A stretch of 64,000 bases of DNA from a virus. This document shows positions 478-58,875 of this stretch, piece by piece. Below the pieces are notes generated by a model. That model ran no database searches. It had not been told where the DNA came from and worked only from the letters and a program-made list of their open reading frames with translations. The stretch is from positions 1-64,000 of the IMG/VR virus record IMGVR_UViG_3300033149_004458; one strand, 5' to 3'. The translations under genes and the position numbers were made by a program. Position 1 is the first letter of the stretch, and the number at the start of each line of letters is the position of its first letter.

Positions 478-507
478 ACTGACAAATACTTCACCAACAA
501 TTGAATA

Positions 508-542
508 GGAACCGGTCTGGTCAACCGGTTCCATTTTTTTAT
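508..542 (+). terminator. Intrinsic terminator
   Basis: A 9-bp perfect stem GGAACCGGT / ACCGGTTCC encloses the 7-base loop CTGGTCA and is followed by A and a run of seven T. This is a classical rho-independent terminator for the gene ending at 477. The loop is identical to that of the terminator at 1056-1087. Confidence 0.92.
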
Positions 543-776
543 GTCTACCTGAATAATAGGGTATCTAACCTGATTTTGGGTGAGAGAAGAGCGCGGTTAC
601 CCCCAGATATAGCGGTTATCTACCAGCAACCCTTGGAATATTTCTGGGAATCCCACTGGTTTCTGGTGAATAAGCTTTCCGGTTAAGTGCGGAGTAGCAG
701 GTTAAATTGGAAAGATAATCAAATCTGCTTAGTGATAAGGTATCTAACCTAGAGATAGCGTGTAGGTTAAAGGGGC

Positions 777-805
777 TTGACTTCTGATTAACCATATGCT
801 ATACT
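777..805 (+). promoter_or_regulatory. Sigma70-type promoter, TTGACT-17-TATACT
   Basis: The -35 box TTGACT (777-782) and -10 box TATACT (800-805) are separated by exactly 17 bases. They would start transcription about 40 bases before the gene at 853. TAACC/GGTTA motifs of the surrounding repeat array lie upstream, in the spacer (GATTAACC) and downstream (CTAGGTTAG), so the promoter is probably regulated. Confidence 0.82.
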
Positions 806-852
806 GAGTATGTAGTGGGGACAGCTAGGTTAGACTGAAAGGAGCGGTTAAA

Positions 853-1041
853 ATGCAAGTAGTGGTAATCTCAGATGTGGTGGACCCAGAGTCTGGTGAA
901 GTCATTTTGTCCACGGGACATTATGACGACGCTGACCCCAGGGTCAGCCGGTGTCTCCGGTTGGAAGAGGCCGGAGACGAGAATATTAAGTCAACGTTCG
1001 TCCGCTTCAATGGGAGGCTTACCCTGATGGTTAAAGGATAA
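853..1041 (+). CDS. Small hypothetical protein, 62 aa
   Basis: This is a small acidic soluble protein with no recognised domain. It contains a His-Tyr-Asp-Asp-Ala-Asp segment around residues 23-28. It has its own strong promoter (777-805), an AGGAGCGG ribosome binding site before the ATG, and an intrinsic terminator directly after it. It is therefore an independent monocistronic unit inside the repeat array. Stand-alone units of this kind in phages often encode regulators or host-takeover peptides. That role is inference only, because no DNA-binding fold is evident. Confidence 0.75.
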   Translation: MQVVVISDVVDPESGEVILSTGHYDDADPRVSRCLRLEEAGDENIKSTFVRFNGRLTLMVKG

Positions 1042-1055
1042 GCCGATAGGTCAGC

Positions 1056-1087
1056 TAGGGCGGCCTGGTCAGCCGCCCTACTTTTTA
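1056..1087 (+). terminator. Intrinsic terminator
   Basis: The 9-bp stem TAGGGCGGC / GCCGCCCTA with loop CTGGTCA is followed by C and five T. It terminates the unit containing the gene at 853. The loop sequence is the same as in the terminator at 508-542. Confidence 0.92.
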
Positions 1088-1435
1088 CCTACCGCTTTAA
1101 TATGGTATCTAACCTGGACAGGAGCGAATTCTGGTAAGCAAGCTCCCAGGTTAAGTAAGATTTTCCTGGTTAAACCTCGTGTGAAATTAGAGCCAGAATA
1201 AAATAAAATATCTAACCGATTCTGGTAAGTAAACTCGCCGGTTAAGTATAATTTCCCAGGTTAAGTCGAATAAGAGGTTATCTGTGTATTGGGATAAGGT
1301 ATCCAACCTTGGGTAAGCAGGTTTTCCGGTTATATACCATGAGGCGGTAAGCAACCAACAGGGGGTCGGGCACCAGCGGGGTCTATGGCGGGCTCTGAAG
1401 TAGGGAAGCCTAGAGAGGGCCGTAGAGTGGGGACT

Positions 1436-1465
1436 GTGGAAACAGAAACTTTCCACTAGTGGAAA
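1436..1465. promoter_or_regulatory. Clustered GTGGAAA inverted repeats, candidate operator
   Basis: Three half-sites alternate here: GTGGAAA (1436-1442), TTTCCAC (1450-1456) and GTGGAAA (1459-1465). The last two form a perfect 16-bp palindrome, TTTCCACTAGTGGAAA (1450-1465). A further TTTCCA lies at about 1483. The cluster sits in a gene-free stretch about 130 bases upstream of the candidate promoter at 1598. Such spacing suits cooperative binding of a dimeric repressor or a site-specific recombination protein. The binding protein is unknown. Confidence 0.55.
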
Positions 1466-1597
1466 CTGACAATCCTATAAACTTTCCATGTATGACCTTC
1501 CTATAAGGGAGTAGAGCTATCTTGTAGATGCACAAAGTGTTGCACACAAGGCAATTGAATGAATCAAAAAATGTTAAGATTCGCCGGTCATTTGTGC

Positions 1598-1626
1598 TTG
1601 TGTTTATTTGACCTTTGGAGTATAAT
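1598..1626 (+). promoter_or_regulatory. Candidate sigma70-type promoter, TTGTGT-17-TATAAT
   Basis: A perfect -10 box TATAAT (1621-1626) lies 17 bases after a weak -35 TTGTGT (1598-1603). It precedes the small membrane protein at 1677. Only the -10 is convincing, so this may be an activator-dependent or extended promoter. Confidence 0.5.
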
Positions 1627-1676
1627 ATAGATAGTTGACTGGCTGATAGTCAAGACAATCTTATTTGGAGGGATGT

Positions 1677-1813: not shown

Positions 1814-2482
1814 ATGGCAAAGAAAACTGTAACTAGTGTTGCACAGAGTGTCTTCGAGAAGGCCGTGGATACTTTTGTTGTTTCTGAGGAACTAGCTGCC
1901 TTCCTAAAGGCAAAACAGAGCAACGTGAATCTTGCTGAAGGGATTCGGGCCGCCTATACAAGGGCTGGTCAGAAGTTTTACTCAGCGAGAATCGATGGGG
2001 AGATTAACGTTGCTCTGGGTTCCAATGGAACAAAGGGCGCTAGTGTTAGGACGAAAGAGCTATTGGCTCTTTCGTCTAGCGCGTGGGATGACAAAGAGAG
2101 AGAAGAGCGACTTGTAGGATTGATTCTCTCTCTTCTCTGTCCTACTGAAATACAATTTCTGGCTGGGCAGATTGTCTATGAGTATGGGAAGTCGGCTTTT
2201 CAAAAACTACTTGCGAATCTGGGATATGAGCGCGAGTGGGCTGAACTAGCATACTCTGTAGGGAAAATCTATCATAATGCCACAGAGCATATTCCTAGTG
2301 AGAACAAGACAAAGAAAAGAAAATCTACTCCAGTAGACACAGAGAAGATAGAGAGAGCGCGTGCGAAACTGCGTGACTCTCTCTCCACTGTTCGTCAGCG
2401 GACGCGCCGCTACGCTAACATGGAAGAGTACCGCAAGGCGCACAGTAAGGAAAGTGAGGAAGAGAATAAAGACAATTCATAG
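1814..2482 (+). CDS. Hypothetical protein with basic C-terminal region, 222 aa
   Basis: This protein is not recognised. It is mostly helical, with a Lys/Arg-rich region at about residues 164-207 (beginning KTKKRKS) and an acidic tail of Glu, Lys and Asp. A basic segment of this kind would suit nucleic-acid binding, but no helix-turn-helix is clear. The start is supported by GGGGGTAGGAC before the ATG. The gene is cotranscribed with the 40-aa membrane peptide upstream and ends before a strong terminator at 2510. Codon use resembles the neighbours. Function is unknown. Confidence 0.75.
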   Translation: MAKKTVTSVAQSVFEKAVDTFVVSEELAAFLKAKQSNVNLAEGIRAAYTRAGQKFYSARIDGEINVALGSNGTKGASVRTKELLALSSSAWDDKEREERLVGLILSLLCPTEIQFLAGQIVYEYGKSAFQKLLANLGYEREWAELAYSVGKIYHNATEHIPSENKTKKRKSTPVDTEKIERARAKLRDSLSTVRQRTRRYANMEEYRKAHSKESEEENKDNS

Positions 2483-20829: not shown

Positions 20830-23800
20830 TTACCTAGGCCCTCCAGCGGGTGTAGAAGTTCTTGCCCGCAATAATGTGCTTAGGGCTTTCTCCAGGATTC
20901 TATTAACATAGCTTGCAATTATAGTCCCGTCCAACATAATTGTATTAGTAATATTAAAGGTGCCCTCAATTGGAGGGATCTCCACCTCTACTGTTTGAGC
21001 TTGCGGTTGAGCATAAAAATTAGGAAAGGTCGTCATTAGGACCGAACCAACTTGAGTAACTATATCTAAATAGTTTTTATTTGGAAAAGTTGTTTGTAGA
21101 ACTGCGCCAGGTGTGCGTATGTCATCTACAATTCTTACGGGAACAGCTTCGCCGTGCGGCCCAACAGAAACATATGGAGTATGTTGGGCGAAAGCGGTTG
21201 CACCGATATACCCTTCCGAAATTGCCATCATAATATCCTGTGCTGTTGCAAACCACTCACCAGCTTTCATGGCCTGCATATATTGATCGGCCCACTCAGT
21301 GGGAGTTGTTGGACCCGTCCAAGCCTCTGTTTTACTAATTGGAGCCAATTCCTCTAGCTTTTCAAACCACTGTCTTAATTCTAAGATAAACTCCTCTTCT
21401 GTTTGGTCTTTGTCCCAAACCGGGATGCCCAACTCAAGCATCTGTTGCATCTGTTGTGTCATTCTACTGGTACTATCTGCCGTAACTTGAGTTGGCGGTA
21501 ATAGCTCTGGCAATCCAGGCACACCGCCCTGTTGTTTCTGGTAAAAAAGTGAGGTTAGTGGCACCCAAAAGGTAGCACCAGCAGGAATATTCCACTGACC
21601 TTCAAGTTGTTTTTCTTCTATTTCTTTAATATCTTGAAGAGCGAACAACATTGCTTGATTTGTAGAGTAAATTTGTTGCCAGACGTTGTTCGGGCCAAGA
21701 ATAAGATTAAATGTTTTGCCCTCTGCCTTTAGATACTGCTGTGCGGTCATTCCTTGCAATCTTGCAAGGTATTCAACCCAATACCTACTTCTTGCAGCAA
21801 TTTCTCCCATCTTGCTTGGGTCAACATCACGCAAACGCATGATTTCCATGCCCTCTTCACGAGATTGTTTGAGCTCATCAAATTTAGCTTTTTGGGCACT
21901 TACAAATTGCTGCATTAGCCCATCAACGTATTGAAAACTATCATCGTTGTACATTACCCAACGATCCAAATCATCAAATGCCGAATCTGGAATACCCAAT
22001 TCTTGAGCGAATTGTTCTTGCATGGTCCGAGCGGCGTTTAGGATTTGCTGCATTTCTTCGGCAGTATATTCTGAGAAATCGGTAAACCCCGGTATATCAA
22101 ATATTTCTCTTAAATTTGCTGCGCTAATAGCGCCAAGTGTTCTACCAAATTCTTCAATTCCAGCATTAAGTTCTTCTATACCAACCGTCCCATCAAGAGC
22201 GGCCTGTTTTAGCCTCATAAGGTCAGTTGCCATTTGTGAGATAAACTCTATATCTGCTCTATCCCACTCTGCCATTTCATCCACTAAATCTTGCAACTGC
22301 GGAACTATACTCCCCAGTGTTTCTCCATGTTTCTCCCAAACAGCTGTGGCCGCAAAAGTTATTTCTGTCAAAGAATCTTGCACAGCGGCTATTTGCTCGT
22401 AACCAGCAGCCAGCTCATTAAGAGTTTCTATATCTCCAGCCTCAAAACCAACTAAGAATTCTTTACGCTTTCTTTGTAGAACTTTCTCTAGACCGGGGTA
22501 GATACCTTTTTGTCTAGAAAGTATCTCTGCCATCGCGGGCGTGGTGCCAGGGCCATATTCTTCTTCAACTTGTCTTTGCTTATCTAACTCAACAAGTTGT
22601 TCCAAAAGCTCTTCCACACGTTCCATTGCTCTTGGTGTAGGCCTGCCTTTCCACGCCTCTTCGCCACGAGCCACTCTTTCAGCTAATCTGGTAATTAACT
22701 CTTCATCAGTTAGCTCTCTGGCTTCTGGACGCCAGAGTCTTTCCATTGTCATGGCAAGCTGCCCAGGGAAACCCTTGCCCACAGCCCAAAATTGTAGCTC
22801 AGATAGAATTTGTTCTCTTGTTAATGCTTCTGCTTCAGGGGCCGGTGCCAACCCCAATGCCTGAGCTATAAATGGAGCTGATTCCTCGATTGCTTGTGCC
22901 GCTGCTTGTCCAATAAAGGCCCCAGCCATAGCTCCAACTGGCCCGCCAAGGGTAGCCCCAATTGCTGTACCAATACCAGCACCAGCGCCCTGTATCCAAC
23001 TTCCAGAGGCCAATCCAGTAGCAAGACCAGCAATACCACCATAAGCAAGCCCAGGGCCGAATGTTTTTAACCCATAACCTGCCATGCTTGTAAGGGGTTG
23101 CCCTAATGCCGCACCGCGTTCTTCCAAACGGCCACCCGCAAACAACATTCTCTCTGGTAAACCAATTCTGGCACCAATACCCATAGAAGTTAGGGCCGCC
23201 AGAATAGCTGTTGTTCCGGTTCCAGCAAAGGAGGTAAATTTGTTAAACAGCCCTATTAATCCAGTCAATGCATCAGTTAGCTTAGTAAGTAGTGATAAAA
23301 TACCACCCTCTTCACCAAGTACATATGACATTTTTGTAAATGCATTGTTTAGCTCTGTCGTAGCCTGTTTTAGGGTTCTGCTTTTTATAGCCAGGGCGTC
23401 CTCAAGGTTGCCCTGAGCGTTCATGCTCACATTTACAACTTCTTGAATTCTGTGTCTCTGGCGCAAAAAGCTTACATAGTCTGCCTGTCTCCTCGCTCCC
23501 TGGGCACCAAGAGCAGCGGCGATTTCTGCCATATCGCGCTCGCCAAGAACATTTCTGTCTAATAGAGCGCCAATGTCATCAAGAATGTCTGCCATGCTTC
23601 GGTAGTTATCATTTATGTCTTTAACAATAATACCATGCTGTTCCAGAGTTTTTTGTGTTGAGGGGGTTTGAATAGCAGCAAACATAGCACGAACAGCATT
23701 TGCTCCCTCAGTAGCAGACTTATTTGTAACCTCAGCCATCACTGCAATGTAAGCGTTAAGTTGGTCCTGGCTAACCCCAGCCATTTCTGCCGCAGCCGCT

Positions 23801-37321: not shown

Positions 37322-37906
37322 CTATCCCGGTAGTCTCAGCGTTCTAAATGTCAGAGCGAATGTCGAAGTATTGAAACGCTCTGTAATAGCGACGCGAGTA
37401 GTACCACTAGCCATAACTGCTAACATGCCAGCAAATGCGGCCCCATCAGTTGCGGCATCACAAGCACGCAAACGGCAACCAGGAACCTGAATCGCTGGAC
37501 TATAGACATATTGCCCAGACGGAACAGTAAAGACACCACCACCAAAAGCTAGTGCCTGGGACCCACTGGGGATTACCACGCTCTCTTGGTAACCAGGATA
37601 CGTTAGATATACTGTTCCTGTGAATGGCGCGTTTCCAGTCTGGTCAAACCCATGGCGCAGAGCGTATGAATATGAGGGATAGTTAATCAGAGGTGGCTCT
37701 CTGCGATCATTCTGCCAAGTAAGAACAAACATGGCTTCCGCGGCCTCAGCTGGTGTGTCGGGCAATTTTACGCCAGGAAGATCAGTTAGGCGGCCAGTCA
37801 AATCGCTGGGGTACCCAGGATTAGAGGTAAATAATACCATACGGCCCTCTGTGATGTCTTCTGTTACAACAACACCTGTTACATCCGTGTTCTTGTTGAT
37901 TTCCAT
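37322..37906 (-). CDS. Capsid decoration/stabilisation-like protein, 194 aa
   Basis: A beta-rich protein lies between protease-scaffold and capsid genes, the usual place of decoration proteins. It has an N-terminal MEINKNTDVTGVVVTEDITEGRMVLFTS stretch, in which the GxVVTEDI(T/A)EGRMV pattern matches small head stabilisation proteins, and a Cys/Ala-rich later part (CRLRACDAATDGAAF). It is larger than typical lambda gpD-like subunits, so a second surface domain is probable. Its exact fold cannot be fixed by eye. Confidence 0.66.
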   Translation of the reverse strand: MEINKNTDVTGVVVTEDITEGRMVLFTSNPGYPSDLTGRLTDLPGVKLPDTPAEAAEAMFVLTWQNDRREPPLINYPSYSYALRHGFDQTGNAPFTGTVYLTYPGYQESVVIPSGSQALAFGGGVFTVPSGQYVYSPAIQVPGCRLRACDAATDGAAFAGMLAVMASGTTRVAITERFNTSTFALTFRTLRLPG

Positions 37907-45533: not shown

Positions 45534-45597
45534 ATTGCTCCTCTCTTGTTTAATGATAAAATTCTTGGTGCCTGTATTTCTCTCCTAATCTATTTCC

Positions 45598-45626
45598 ATT
45601 ATAGCAAATGGTAAGATTTTTGTCAA
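45598..45626 (-). promoter_or_regulatory. Consensus sigma70 promoter, TTGACA-17-TATAAT
   Basis: On the minus strand TTGACA (45626-45621) and TATAAT (45603-45598) are perfect, with a 17-base spacer starting AAAATC. It drives the gene at 45533 and probably the downstream RNA ligase operon. Confidence 0.93.
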
Positions 45627-45693
45627 GTTAGTTCAACCATAAGATTTCTTCGTTGTTATTAGTCAGTGAGAAGTTATCCTTTTGTCTTTCGAC

Positions 45694-45891: not shown

Positions 45892-45923
45892 TCTTTCTAA
45901 ACTCCTTTCCTTGAATCATTTTC

Positions 45924-45952
45924 ATTTTATCATGTGATGAAATTTTTGTCAA
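45924..45952 (-). promoter_or_regulatory. Sigma70 promoter, TTGACA-17-TAAAAT
   Basis: TTGACA (45952-45947) and TAAAAT (45929-45924) with a 17-base spacer beginning AAAATT lie on the minus strand before the membrane gene at 45891. It lies immediately downstream of the tRNA-Trp gene, so it restarts transcription after the tRNAs. Confidence 0.88.
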
Positions 45953-45985
45953 GCCAAACCAACCGTTTTTCTTTATTGCTACAGA

Positions 45986-51444: not shown

Positions 51445-51643
51445 CCGCTCCCCAGTAGTTAAGCTTGCCCTCTCTCGTAAATGCAAAATATATTACTTCT
51501 GGACCTATAGATGGAAGCTCAACATATGTATGTGTTTTTCCACAAGGAGAGGCTTTCCCTCTACGAACAATCCCTCTATGAACAACTCTATAATTTACCT
51601 GAGCGCCGTTTAGCATATGCAAAAACATCTCCAGATCAGACAT
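51434..51643 (-). CDS. Small hypothetical protein, 69 aa
   Basis: This protein starts with MSDLEMFLHMLNGAQVNYRV and continues with beta strands (THTYVELPSIGPEVIYFAFTREGKLNYWG), a pattern of small alpha-beta phage proteins. AAAGGAG lies seven bases before the ATG. It overlaps the methyltransferase gene by 11 bases, so it may be coupled to it. Function unknown. Confidence 0.68.
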   Translation of the reverse strand: MSDLEMFLHMLNGAQVNYRVVHRGIVRRGKASPCGKTHTYVELPSIGPEVIYFAFTREGKLNYWGADES

Positions 51644-51644
51644 A

Positions 51645-51827
51645 TCAAACTCCTTTATCAGTCTTTCCTTTCAACGAGAAATTTCTAATAGCTAATTCCT
51701 TCTGTTCTTCTGTTGCTTTCTTCCAACATTGTTTGTGCCAAATAATATTAGCGTATGGACGATCACTTGCTTGTAAAAATTGTTCTTGTTCTTCTTCTAT
51801 TGGTTTGTTACAGCCAGGGCAAATCAT
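51645..51827 (-). CDS. Zinc-finger microprotein, 60 aa
   Basis: MICPGCNKPIEEEQEQFLQ at the N-terminus has a CxxC knuckle, with WHKQCWKK further on supplying His and Cys for a third and fourth ligand. AGGAAG precedes the ATG. It overlaps the upstream zinc-finger gene by four bases. Probably a small regulator of nucleic acids or polymerase. Confidence 0.68.
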   Translation of the reverse strand: MICPGCNKPIEEEQEQFLQASDRPYANIIWHKQCWKKATEEQKELAIRNFSLKGKTDKGV

Positions 51828-52063
51828 CTTAGCTTCCTATATCTTTTCAATGTATCCCACAAAGTCTTAGTCAAAAAGCGGTCTTCCTTAGTAACTATAA
51901 AGTTCAGCAGGCTTTCTACGTCTGCTCTTAGCAGTGGTACATATACTACTTTATGTTTCTCTTCACACTGCTTAGCCCTCTTAAATGCTTTTTCTCTATC
52001 ATTACTTGTATAGGTCCTACCACAGATTGAGCACCTATAAGTATGCTTTAAACTTTCTGGCAT
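51824..52063 (-). CDS. Zinc-finger protein, 79 aa
   Basis: TYRCSICGRTYTSNDREKAFKRAKQCEEKH at the N-terminus contains CxxC followed by Cys and His, a C2H2-like or treble-clef type zinc motif. A helical basic C-terminus follows. It is the first gene after the divergent control region and has an ideal AAGGAG six bases before the ATG. A role as early regulator of the divergent promoters is plausible from position only. Confidence 0.72.
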   Translation of the reverse strand: MPESLKHTYRCSICGRTYTSNDREKAFKRAKQCEEKHKVVYVPLLRADVESLLNFIVTKEDRFLTKTLWDTLKRYRKLR

Positions 52064-52072
52064 ATCAGCTCC

Positions 52073-52101
52073 TTGACAAAATTTTTATTTTATGTTATTA
52101 T
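52073..52101 (+). promoter_or_regulatory. Candidate sigma70 promoter, TTGACA-17-TATTAT
   Basis: TTGACA (52073-52078), a 17-base spacer starting AAATTT and TATTAT (52096-52101) lie on the plus strand. If active, it would read rightward through the AT-rich gap towards the polymerase gene. It overlaps the ribosome binding site of the minus-strand gene at 52063. Confidence 0.6.
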
Positions 52102-52255
52102 GAATTTTAAGAGTAGCCAGAATTATGCTTAATAACAAAACCTCTTAATTTAAAAAAAATTTAAAAGCTTAAAATTTTAAATCTTCATTTATATATAAAA
52201 ATTTATTTGTTTTAACTTTTAAACTTCCTGTACCTCCGCAGTATTCGGCGGCGAC
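52102..52255. other. Very AT-rich stretch, candidate origin or control region
   Basis: This gene-free stretch is almost entirely A and T (for example around 52145-52185), followed by a short G+C-rich inverted sequence CCGC...GCGG near 52236-52251. It lies between divergent operons just upstream of the replication genes, a common place for origin unwinding elements. No iterons are evident here. Confidence 0.4.
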
Positions 52256-52284
52256 ATTTTAATTTTAATTTTCATTTTTGTCAA
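52256..52284 (-). promoter_or_regulatory. Sigma70 promoter, TTGACA-17-TAAAAT
   Basis: On the minus strand TTGACA (52284-52279) and TAAAAT (52261-52256) are 17 bases apart, with AAAATG after the -35. It fires leftward towards the zinc-finger gene at 52063 and is the downstream member of a tandem pair. Confidence 0.82.
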
Positions 52285-52288
52285 TAAT

Positions 52289-52317
52289 ATTGTAACACAA
52301 AAAAGATTTTTTGTCAA
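52289..52317 (-). promoter_or_regulatory. Sigma70 promoter, TTGACA-17-TACAAT
   Basis: On the minus strand TTGACA (52317-52312) and TACAAT (52294-52289) are 17 bases apart. It is the upstream member of a tandem leftward pair; its -10 lies five bases before the -35 of the next promoter. Confidence 0.82.
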
Positions 52318-52389
52318 GGGAATTTTGCGCTAAGAACGTCAAAAATTTCTTAAAAATTTCTTAAAATACGTAGAAACGCTGTTTTTGTC

Positions 52390-52418
52390 TTGACAAAATT
52401 TGCTTTTTGTGCTATAAT
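52390..52418 (+). promoter_or_regulatory. Consensus sigma70 promoter, TTGACA-17-TATAAT
   Basis: TTGACA (52390-52395), a spacer beginning AAATTTGC and TATAAT (52413-52418) lie about 30 bases before the polymerase ATG. This is the main rightward promoter of the replication operon. Confidence 0.94.
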
Positions 52419-52448
52419 AAGGAAGATCAAAAATTTTAAAGGAGCAGC

Positions 52449-56329: not shown

Positions 56330-56671
56330 ATGGTCGGGAAATTTCTAAGCCAACTTAATCAAAATGAGAAGGGGTCGCATTTAATATTGGCTAGAGTCTT
56401 CTCAGAGATTTTTGGGAGGAAATTGAGGAACGAAGAATGGGGGTGGCTTCGGAGGCTAATAAAACTTTATGGTAGTGAGACAGTCTTTTGGGCTTTACTT
56501 TCTAGTGTTGGCATAAGCAACACGAACAAACCTTTAGCTTACGTGAGTAAAATCTGTATAAATTGGCTGGCTGATGGGGTCGAAGAGGCCTACAGGGATA
56601 CAGCGAATAACTTTATTGACGAAACACAAGAACTGCTTTTGGAACTAAGAGGGGAAAATGCTGCTGAATAG
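56330..56671 (+). CDS. Helicase-loader-like protein (DnaD/DnaB_2 type), 113 aa
   Basis: The arrangement FSEIFGRKLRNEEWGWLRRLIKLYGSETVFWAL and later LAYVSKICINWL resembles the C-terminal DnaD/DnaB_2 domain, whose Y-x-x-x-I-x-x-x-W motif loads DnaB helicase onto DNA. It directly precedes the dnaB-like gene and overlaps it by 14 bases, supporting that role. No Shine-Dalgarno sequence precedes the ATG. Short relative to full DnaD proteins, it keeps only one domain. Function is inferred. Confidence 0.68.
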   Translation: MVGKFLSQLNQNEKGSHLILARVFSEIFGRKLRNEEWGWLRRLIKLYGSETVFWALLSSVGISNTNKPLAYVSKICINWLADGVEEAYRDTANNFIDETQELLLELRGENAAE

Positions 56672-58195: not shown

Positions 58196-58622
58196 ACAAA
58201 AGAGGGCTGGAAGTAATTGGGAAAGGGAACTGGCAAAAAGGCTCAAGGGCAAAAGACAGCCTAGCTCTGGTGCTTTTGGAACACAACATCATGATGCAAA
58301 ACTCACAGGAGACGTTGTAGTTTCGTATCCATGGTGGAACAAGCCGCTTCACATTGAATGTAAATACGGCTATGGTGGCAAATCACAACTTTCACTTAAG
58401 CGGGGGTGGTTTACAAAAGTAAGACAAGAGGCAGCAAACGCTAACCGTTATCCATGCGTAGCTATAAAGTTTAGAGATGTAACCAGTGACGTTGAAACAG
58501 CTAAAGTAATTTGCTTTAATATAGATACTTGGGAAAGAATGATGCAAGAATTAAAATACTTATACTTAGATTATCTCTCGATGCTAAAGGAGCAATATGA
58601 GAACCAAGAAAAGAATAAGTGA
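58185..58622 (+). CDS. Holliday junction resolvase-like PD-(D/E)XK nuclease, 145 aa
   Basis: AGSNWERELAKRL (Glu13), RQPSSGAFG, LTGDVVV (Asp43) and HIECKYG (Glu58-Cys-Lys60) match the Hjc/archaeal-type resolvase layout, with active-site E, D and ExK. The start at 58185 overlaps the previous gene; the longer frame from 58080 runs in an alternative frame inside it. It likely cleaves branched DNA before packaging. The central part is beta-rich as expected for the fold. The C-terminal 40 residues are helical. Confidence 0.82.
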   Translation: MTSRQKRAGSNWERELAKRLKGKRQPSSGAFGTQHHDAKLTGDVVVSYPWWNKPLHIECKYGYGGKSQLSLKRGWFTKVRQEAANANRYPCVAIKFRDVTSDVETAKVICFNIDTWERMMQELKYLYLDYLSMLKEQYENQEKNK

Positions 58623-58875
58623 GTTTGCTGACCCCTATAGAGAGTGGGTTGTAGTTGCAGAGTTTCTGTTGGCCCTGGATAGGGACGCTACAATGTTTGA
58701 TCTTATTAAGGTTATGTATGAGTGGAAAACCAGTTGTCCTTTTCCAGAGATGCCAGACGAAGACGTAGTTTTATCTTTATTTGATAGCGGTATGTCGCCA
58801 GTGAATATTGCTCGCAACCTTGATACAGAATCAGGAGTAGTCAGAGCGATCTTAGAGAGTTGTAAAAGGATTTAA
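58597..58875 (+). CDS. Small protein with helix-turn-helix-like C-terminus, 92 aa
   Basis: The C-terminal region (about 60-90, DVVLSLFDSGMSPVNIARNLDTESGVVRAILESC) reads like a helix-turn-helix of the MarR/sigma type, with SPVNIARNL as turn and recognition helix. The N-terminal part is hydrophobic-charged without motif. AAAGGAG lies six bases before the ATG, and it overlaps the resolvase gene by 26 bases. It could be a small regulator. Confidence 0.62.
   Translation: MRTKKRISEFADPYREWVVVAEFLLALDRDATMFDLIKVMYEWKTSCPFPEMPDEDVVLSLFDSGMSPVNIARNLDTESGVVRAILESCKRI

Follow-up and report, generated by a model that had tools for sequence, protein, structure and literature searches.

The window, the whole 64,000-base stretch analysed here, comprises bases 1-64000 of an 80,112-bp virus record (IMGVR_UViG_3300033149_004458). 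The final 114 bases of the record are a copy of its initial 114, and because of this 114-bp terminal repeat we read the record as a 79,998-bp circle; positions above 64,000 are genome coordinates of that circle. The genome encodes a terminase, a portal, a family A DNA polymerase, a RecA/UvsX-like protein, a DnaB helicase, a primase, a ribonucleotide reductase, two DNA methyltransferases and an amidoligase operon. The phage looks lytic and apparently non-integrating, because no integrase, partition or repressor family is among the 25 top families listed from batch scans with Pfam and PHROGs. Known phages are remote: the terminase is 21-25% identical to those of two records and the capsid protein 26% to that of one. 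Searches by blastn of positions 1-2600 against phages and of 478-1700 against plasmids gave no match. Between 67.05 and 76.1 kb the genome carries a leftward operon that may serve peptide or surface modification and is partly kept in the relative described below; its genes encode an amidoligase, a phiEco32-like COOH-NH2 ligase, an ATP-grasp protein and a glutamine amidotransferase.

The early + region at the start of the window contains small genes separated by gene-free spaces, and these spaces are filled with short repeated motifs (Table 1). A preliminary description of the locus had proposed an array of two-motif modules around a lone promoter and small gene. We confirmed that the array is real, and it is larger than that description had it.

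Table 1. Features of the array and related sites. Positions above 64,000 are genome coordinates.
Position	Strand	Feature	Details
507..541	+	Intrinsic terminator of the gene 115-477 transcript	AGGAACCGGT-CTGGTCA-ACCGGTTCCA-TTTTTTT; first array unit begins 27 bp past its stem
560..571	+	A motif, window copy 1	GGTATCTAACCT
574..618	+	B-C-C' module	GGTGA 579, GGTTA 595 (+16), 614 (+19)
660..706	+	B-C-C' module	TTTCTGGTGA (GGT at 665), GGTTAAG 681, GGTTAAA 700
739..750	+	A motif upstream of promoter P765	GGTATCTAACCT
743, 825		Perfect 10-bp inverted arms flanking P765	TCTAACCTAG (743), CTAGGTTAGA (825)
765..805	+	P765 with operator-like GGTTAA-N17-TTAACC over the -35	TTGACT 777, TATACT 800
825..850	+	Two more GGTTA in the promoter-to-start codon interval	828, 846
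853..1041	+	Small gene, 62 aa	No known family, no G004 relative
1055..1086	+	Intrinsic terminator	A motif starts 23 bp past its stem
1104..1115	+	A motif	GGTATCTAACCT
1128..1173	+	B-C-C' module	TTCTGGTAAG 1129, GGTTAAG 1149, GGTTAAA 1168
1207..1217	+	Degenerate A motif	AATATCTAACC
1219..1282	+	B-C-C' module	TTCTGGTAAG 1220, GGTTAAG 1240 and 1259, GGTTA 1276
1298..1309	+	A motif	GGTATCCAACCT
1310..1351	+	B-C module	GGTAAG 1312, GGTTA 1328, GGTAAG 1346
1437..1488	none	Second element	Four TGGAAA/TTTCCA half-sites, offsets 0, 13, 23, 46
1586..1630	+	Probable promoter of the 1677 and 1814 genes	TTGTGT-N17-TATAAT
1814..2482	+	Gene of the 222-aa protein	Final gene of the early + region
45594..45638	-	Looser promoter dyad	GGTTGA...CTTACC, TTGACA-N17-TATAAT
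45920..45964	-	Weakest promoter dyad	Left half GGTTGG, right half unconserved; 33 bits
66990, 79124, 79233, 79349	+	Further A motifs	Motif search
66874, 76760, 76816, 79052, 79143, 79275	+	Further modules	Module search

The A motif, TATCYAACC, occurs nine times genome-wide, always on the + strand (none on -; 0.7 expected per strand). Five copies lie in the window, at 562, 741, 1106, 1209 and 1300, each on +, against a shuffle mean of 1.2; none of 100 shuffles reached five, in agreement with the earlier claim of at least five upstream-type motifs. The companion claim of at least five GGTTAAG-type motifs held only in part. The exact heptamer occurs four times in the interval (681, 1149, 1240 and 1259) and is not enriched over the window (10 seen, 8.75 expected), whereas its GGTTA core occurs 14 times on the + strand of 540-1360, where about 1.2 would be expected at the genome-wide rate. 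The informative unit is this core with its fixed spacings, rather than the heptamer.

In a genome-wide count covering every distance of 6-60 bp, we found GGTRR followed by GGTTA at 16 bp in 11 cases on the + strand (mean over spacings about 0.95) and GGTTA followed by GGTTA at 19 bp in five (mean over spacings 0.38). These spacings are the genome-wide maxima on + only, with nothing comparable on -, and in dinucleotide shuffles of three gene-free stretches they average 0.04 and 0.00, respectively. B-C modules above 21 bits number 11 on + and none on -. A unit consists of one TATCYAACC, then GGTRR and GGTTA 16 bp apart, often with a further GGTTA 19 bp on; along the array, a single inverted core (A) is repeatedly followed by two to four direct ones. 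Two modules had been said to share a middle sequence, and TTCTGGTAAG does have exactly two copies in 80 kb (1129 and 1220). Overall, the module copies differ by 25-40%, and the fixed motifs and spacings are for this reason not merely a trace of recent duplication. The A motif and the C core have different flanks, and the two may be bound by two separate proteins.

The array runs on past the contig ends, at 79.05-79.5, 76.76-76.85 and 66.87-67.0 kb. In all, its sites are spread over five gaps (66.9, 76.8, 79.1, 0.55 and 1.1 kb), one of which is the convergent end of the replication operon, and nearly all A motifs and B-C modules lie in gaps or at gene ends. Every A motif (9/9) and every module (11/11) is on +, adjoining + genes. 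Most of the genome consists of leftward operons, and in these we found no reversed copies. A second element, made of TGGAAA/TTTCCA half-sites, lies between the array and the promoter that follows and recurs with identical offsets at genome 79371-79422. Its last pair, TGGAAA-N17-TTTCCA, has the same gap as the GGTTAA dyad at the promoters. These half-sites are probably the sites of a second regulator. The elements at 1437 and 79371 may simply be copies of one another.

The core also occurs in the promoters. The preliminary description had placed a strong promoter at 777, with one motif just upstream and another inside its spacer; P765 indeed matches the consensus (TTGACT-N17-TATACT, 777-805), with GGTTAA at 765 and TTAACC in the spacer at 788. 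The dyad GGTTRA-N17-TTAACC covers the -35 of five promoters and recurs in two looser versions (Table 1). The close dyads, four on + and one leftward at 76.05 kb, belong to P765, 79467, 76071, 76951 (left half GGTGAA) and 76055 (leftward). A dyad matrix scores 45-54 bits at the six sites from which it was built, values that are consequently not independent, 33 bits at a seventh, found with the matrix, and 12 bits at the next candidate. The promoter of the replication operon (52378) has no dyad. The dyads contain the GGTTA core, and the full A or B-C motif is absent from them. At the probable promoter of the 1677 and 1814 genes we noted a dyad GGTCA...TGACC, at positions similar to those of the GGTTAA dyad (a weak match, 4.8 bits), as if of variant specificity.

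The module pattern gave 13 isolated matches in viral contigs, none with clustered motifs, which we attribute to chance, and just three isolated matches in genome contigs, from unrelated organisms. No relatives were obtained through the 222-aa, 120-aa, TerL or ribonucleotide reductase proteins, and the DNA polymerase returned only loci about 25-30% identical. The major capsid protein returned 17 loci, including IMGVR_UViG_3300037826_000057 (77,053 bp; hereafter G004), which was also the only locus returned by the ATP-grasp gene. G004 is colinear with the phage of the window, and most of the structural, replication, ribonucleotide reductase and amidoligase genes have relatives in it at 28-70% identity. 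The genes adjoining the array (115, 853 and 1814) have no G004 relative by tblastn. G004 is the only relative that covers the array region; the more distant relatives G003 and G005-G009 showed no array counterpart, but these are fragments or do not span the region.

Applied to G004, the module matrix gave six matches of at least 14 bits on + and none on - (shuffle mean 0.27 on +). The best, at 21681, scores 25.6 bits, against a maximum of 21.2 in 60 dinucleotide shuffles; it lies directly past the ribonucleotide reductase stop codon and is the counterpart of the copy at 66874. Two matches, at 21127 and 73300, are inside well-supported genes and may be due to chance; the other four fall within the gene-poor DNA of the early region or next to it. 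GGTATCYAACC is absent from G004. A different sequence, TAAYGAACC, is present there in nine copies, all on + (0.7 expected per strand); this count is post hoc, as the motif was spotted by reading the G004 gaps, and better evidence comes from its positions. At the ribonucleotide reductase gene, a copy lies past the module and before the operon terminator, as the A motif does in the phage of the window. TAAYGAACC takes the place of TATCYAACC, with diverged letters in a kept position. Early + genes with a clear terminator have an A-type motif 19-30 bp past its stem in five of five cases (terminators at 507 and 1055 in the phage of the window and at 37438, 39430 and 40553 in G004), including a variant, GGTATATAACC, at G004 37484. 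The terminators that close the early region (2509, and 43242 in G004) have no A-type motif, and we saw no GGTTAA dyad at G004 promoters. The small early genes are almost wholly different between the two phages while the blocks remain. Instead of losing the motifs and keeping the flanking genes, G004 loses the flanking small genes and keeps the modules in position and orientation. This conservation, with a core common to the promoter dyads (five and two looser), supports the multi-site operator suggested in the preliminary description.

Which protein might bind these sites? The 62-aa gene had been put forward as regulator or target. The first role finds no backing, as its product has neither a family match nor a relative in G004, and the second is more likely: the gene is probably a target of P765 and not the regulator. 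The 222-aa protein yields a poor AlphaFold model (pLDDT 41); its gene is syntenic with a gene for 287 aa in G004, to which it shows no BLASTP homology and only a weak hhalign match. A 92-aa protein of the replication operon (58597-58875) is 48% identical in G004. Its C-terminal half has sub-threshold PDB matches, all to helix-turn-helix proteins (E 0.098-0.94), and its model (pLDDT 64) gave no fold match. We consider it a candidate binder, and a host protein is possible too. No repressor or tyrosine-recombinase/integrase-type protein is among the 25 top families listed, from which a diverged fold could escape.

From the observed sites, spacings and orientation, the promoter dyads and their conservation in G004, we infer that a single phage-encoded regulator binds the short asymmetric GGTTA core at all sites and acts by repression or blocking. 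At early promoters, two cores would face each other over the -35, and the bound protein would prevent RNA polymerase from initiating. In the spacers, the protein would occupy units in which a single inverted core (the A motif) precedes direct cores spaced at fixed steps of 16 and 19 bp. These units are aligned with transcription and lie directly past early terminators, before the early promoter that follows, and where the replication operon ends convergently. At these places the protein might form a one-way roadblock or silencing complex against elongation. Such a roadblock would insulate each early operon and shut early transcription down, in the manner of the operators and stoperators of cluster A mycobacteriophages, for which one-way DNA roadblocks are well documented. 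We propose, with a probability of about 0.5, that the array consists of orientation-specific, operator- or stoperator-like sites of a phage DNA-binding protein that silences or insulates the early operons.

Two known systems offer comparisons. In cluster A mycobacteriophages (L5, Bxb1), the repressor gp71/Rep has 20-30 short asymmetric sites, mostly intergenic, which follow the direction of transcription, lie in some cases inside early promoters and diverge in consensus between related phages (PMC6550527, PMC9283540). The array resembles this system in its many short asymmetric sites, chiefly intergenic (nine A motifs, 11 B-C modules), and in their orientation with transcription (9/9 A motifs, 11/11 modules, and 9/9 in G004). 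In contrast to cluster A, the phage of the window groups its sites into composite units with steps fixed at 16/19 bp, has a 29-bp dyad at its promoters and restricts its sites to the early + region and the end of one operon; the families listed include no recognisable repressor or integrase. The SPBRE repeats of Bacillus phage SPbeta were likewise first seen in silico as a repeated intergenic element and later found to be the binding site of MrpR, the master repressor of that phage; SPBRE is a single 15-bp motif of a temperate phage, and MrpR has a tyrosine-recombinase fold (PMC10516654), unlike any protein among the families listed here. We do not file the array under either system, because we found no homologous repressor and the unit structure differs.

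We more tentatively suggest that the system is novel: a composite unit of one inverted and at least two direct half-sites at 16- and 19-bp steps, in an apparently non-integrating lineage, with units following every early terminator and closing the replication operon. Bound there, a regulator outside any recognised family would impose a one-way block, and its specificity would co-diverge between genera. If this is true, the one-way roadblock strategy would prove more general, extending beyond the cluster A mycobacteriophages to an unrelated, apparently non-integrating lineage. Position kept while letters diverge would also make a clean two-species case for finding the regulator through the co-diverging protein.

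Alternatively, the half-sites could be bound by a phage initiator and form, together with the adjoining DNA, a replication origin to which the DnaB helicase and a possible DnaB_2/DnaD-like loader (56330-56671) are recruited. We consider this improbable, and an origin close to the array less likely than the operator reading. Like the iteron origins of plasmids and phages, the array clusters direct repeats of a short predicted binding site, here beside gene-free DNA; the phage encodes a helicase, primase and polymerase, the possible loader being a sub-threshold Pfam match, and in G004 the syntenic gap (40.5-42.4 kb) has modules that adjoin a very AT-rich tract in which several families of short repeats occur. 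However, the sites are dispersed among five gaps, one of them at the convergent end of an operon, and have the same core as the promoter operators. The array gaps in the window have a G+C content of 0.42-0.44, which equals the genome mean, with no AT-rich unwinding tract and no cluster of DnaA boxes. Rather than the constant-period tandem repeats beside an AT-rich tract that characterise iterons, we find two alternating spacings and inverted sites in mixed orientations, and the iteron or origin option of the preliminary description is not favoured. A better candidate origin appears to be the 1-kb gap at 51445-52448 (0.33 G+C), which has divergent operons on either side and several consensus promoters and coincides with the cumulative GC-skew minimum near 52 kb, although skew here tracks gene strand and the minimum is only a hint. 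In G004, 40.96-41.5 kb is a very AT-rich, origin-like region of ACAATTAAATA and GATACACTGGCAATT repeats.

A further alternative is that the units work as part of the transcript, where they could signal, for instance, antitermination, processing or stability of the 3' end. Action at the RNA level would explain the single orientation, as every copy is on the sense strand; two copies lie at the stop codon of the upstream gene (66874 and 76760), the A core is complementary to the C core, and some modules fall within large hairpins (near 21686-21760 in G004 and at 76793-76862 in the phage of the window). Yet the 17 modules of both phages, which align without gaps, have no common structure: RNAalifold found no pair, and neither conserved covariation nor an Rfam match places the array in a structured RNA family. 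On the + strand, folding of array segments is mostly no better than that of shuffles (z -1.3 to +1.1, except 76765-77000); on the - strand a few segments fold lower, to -3.4. Several units lie downstream of a terminator and ahead of the following promoter, an interval in which transcripts should be scarce, and the GGTTA core also forms the DNA dyad over promoters. Recognition as DNA is favoured because there is no common RNA structure, + strand folding is mostly unremarkable and several units lie between terminator and promoter, and we regard an RNA-level role as quite unlikely.

T4-type phages carry PeSL (promoter early stem-loop) cassettes, in which a terminator stem-loop and an early promoter lie between small early genes; PeSLs are not known to carry spaced multi-half-site arrays. 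Blocks of terminator and promoter similarly recur between the small early genes here, and these terminator-array-promoter blocks might be mobile regulatory cassettes that recombine at the repeats and shuffle small early genes, a very unlikely reading in our view: a similar block of three units, TGGAAA element and promoter is indeed present twice (79.05-79.51 and 1.10-1.62 kb), and blocks stay while genes differ between the phages, but the exact 16/19-bp spacing and single orientation despite 25-40% divergence point to binding constraints beyond homology.

The early regions of both phages have other sequence features. Upstream of early promoters we noted GC-rich runs of alternating purines and pyrimidines (28, 28 and 20 nt at genome 76923-76950 and at G004 33929 and 39685), which are Z-DNA-prone; the run at 76923-76950 holds a perfect 26-bp palindrome. 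In G004, the gene-free stretches at 37.5-38.4 and 39.49-39.67 kb contain short degenerate tandem repeats with A-type motifs at their bounds. These repeats include about ten GGTATAA-type units, some of which resemble extended -10 boxes.
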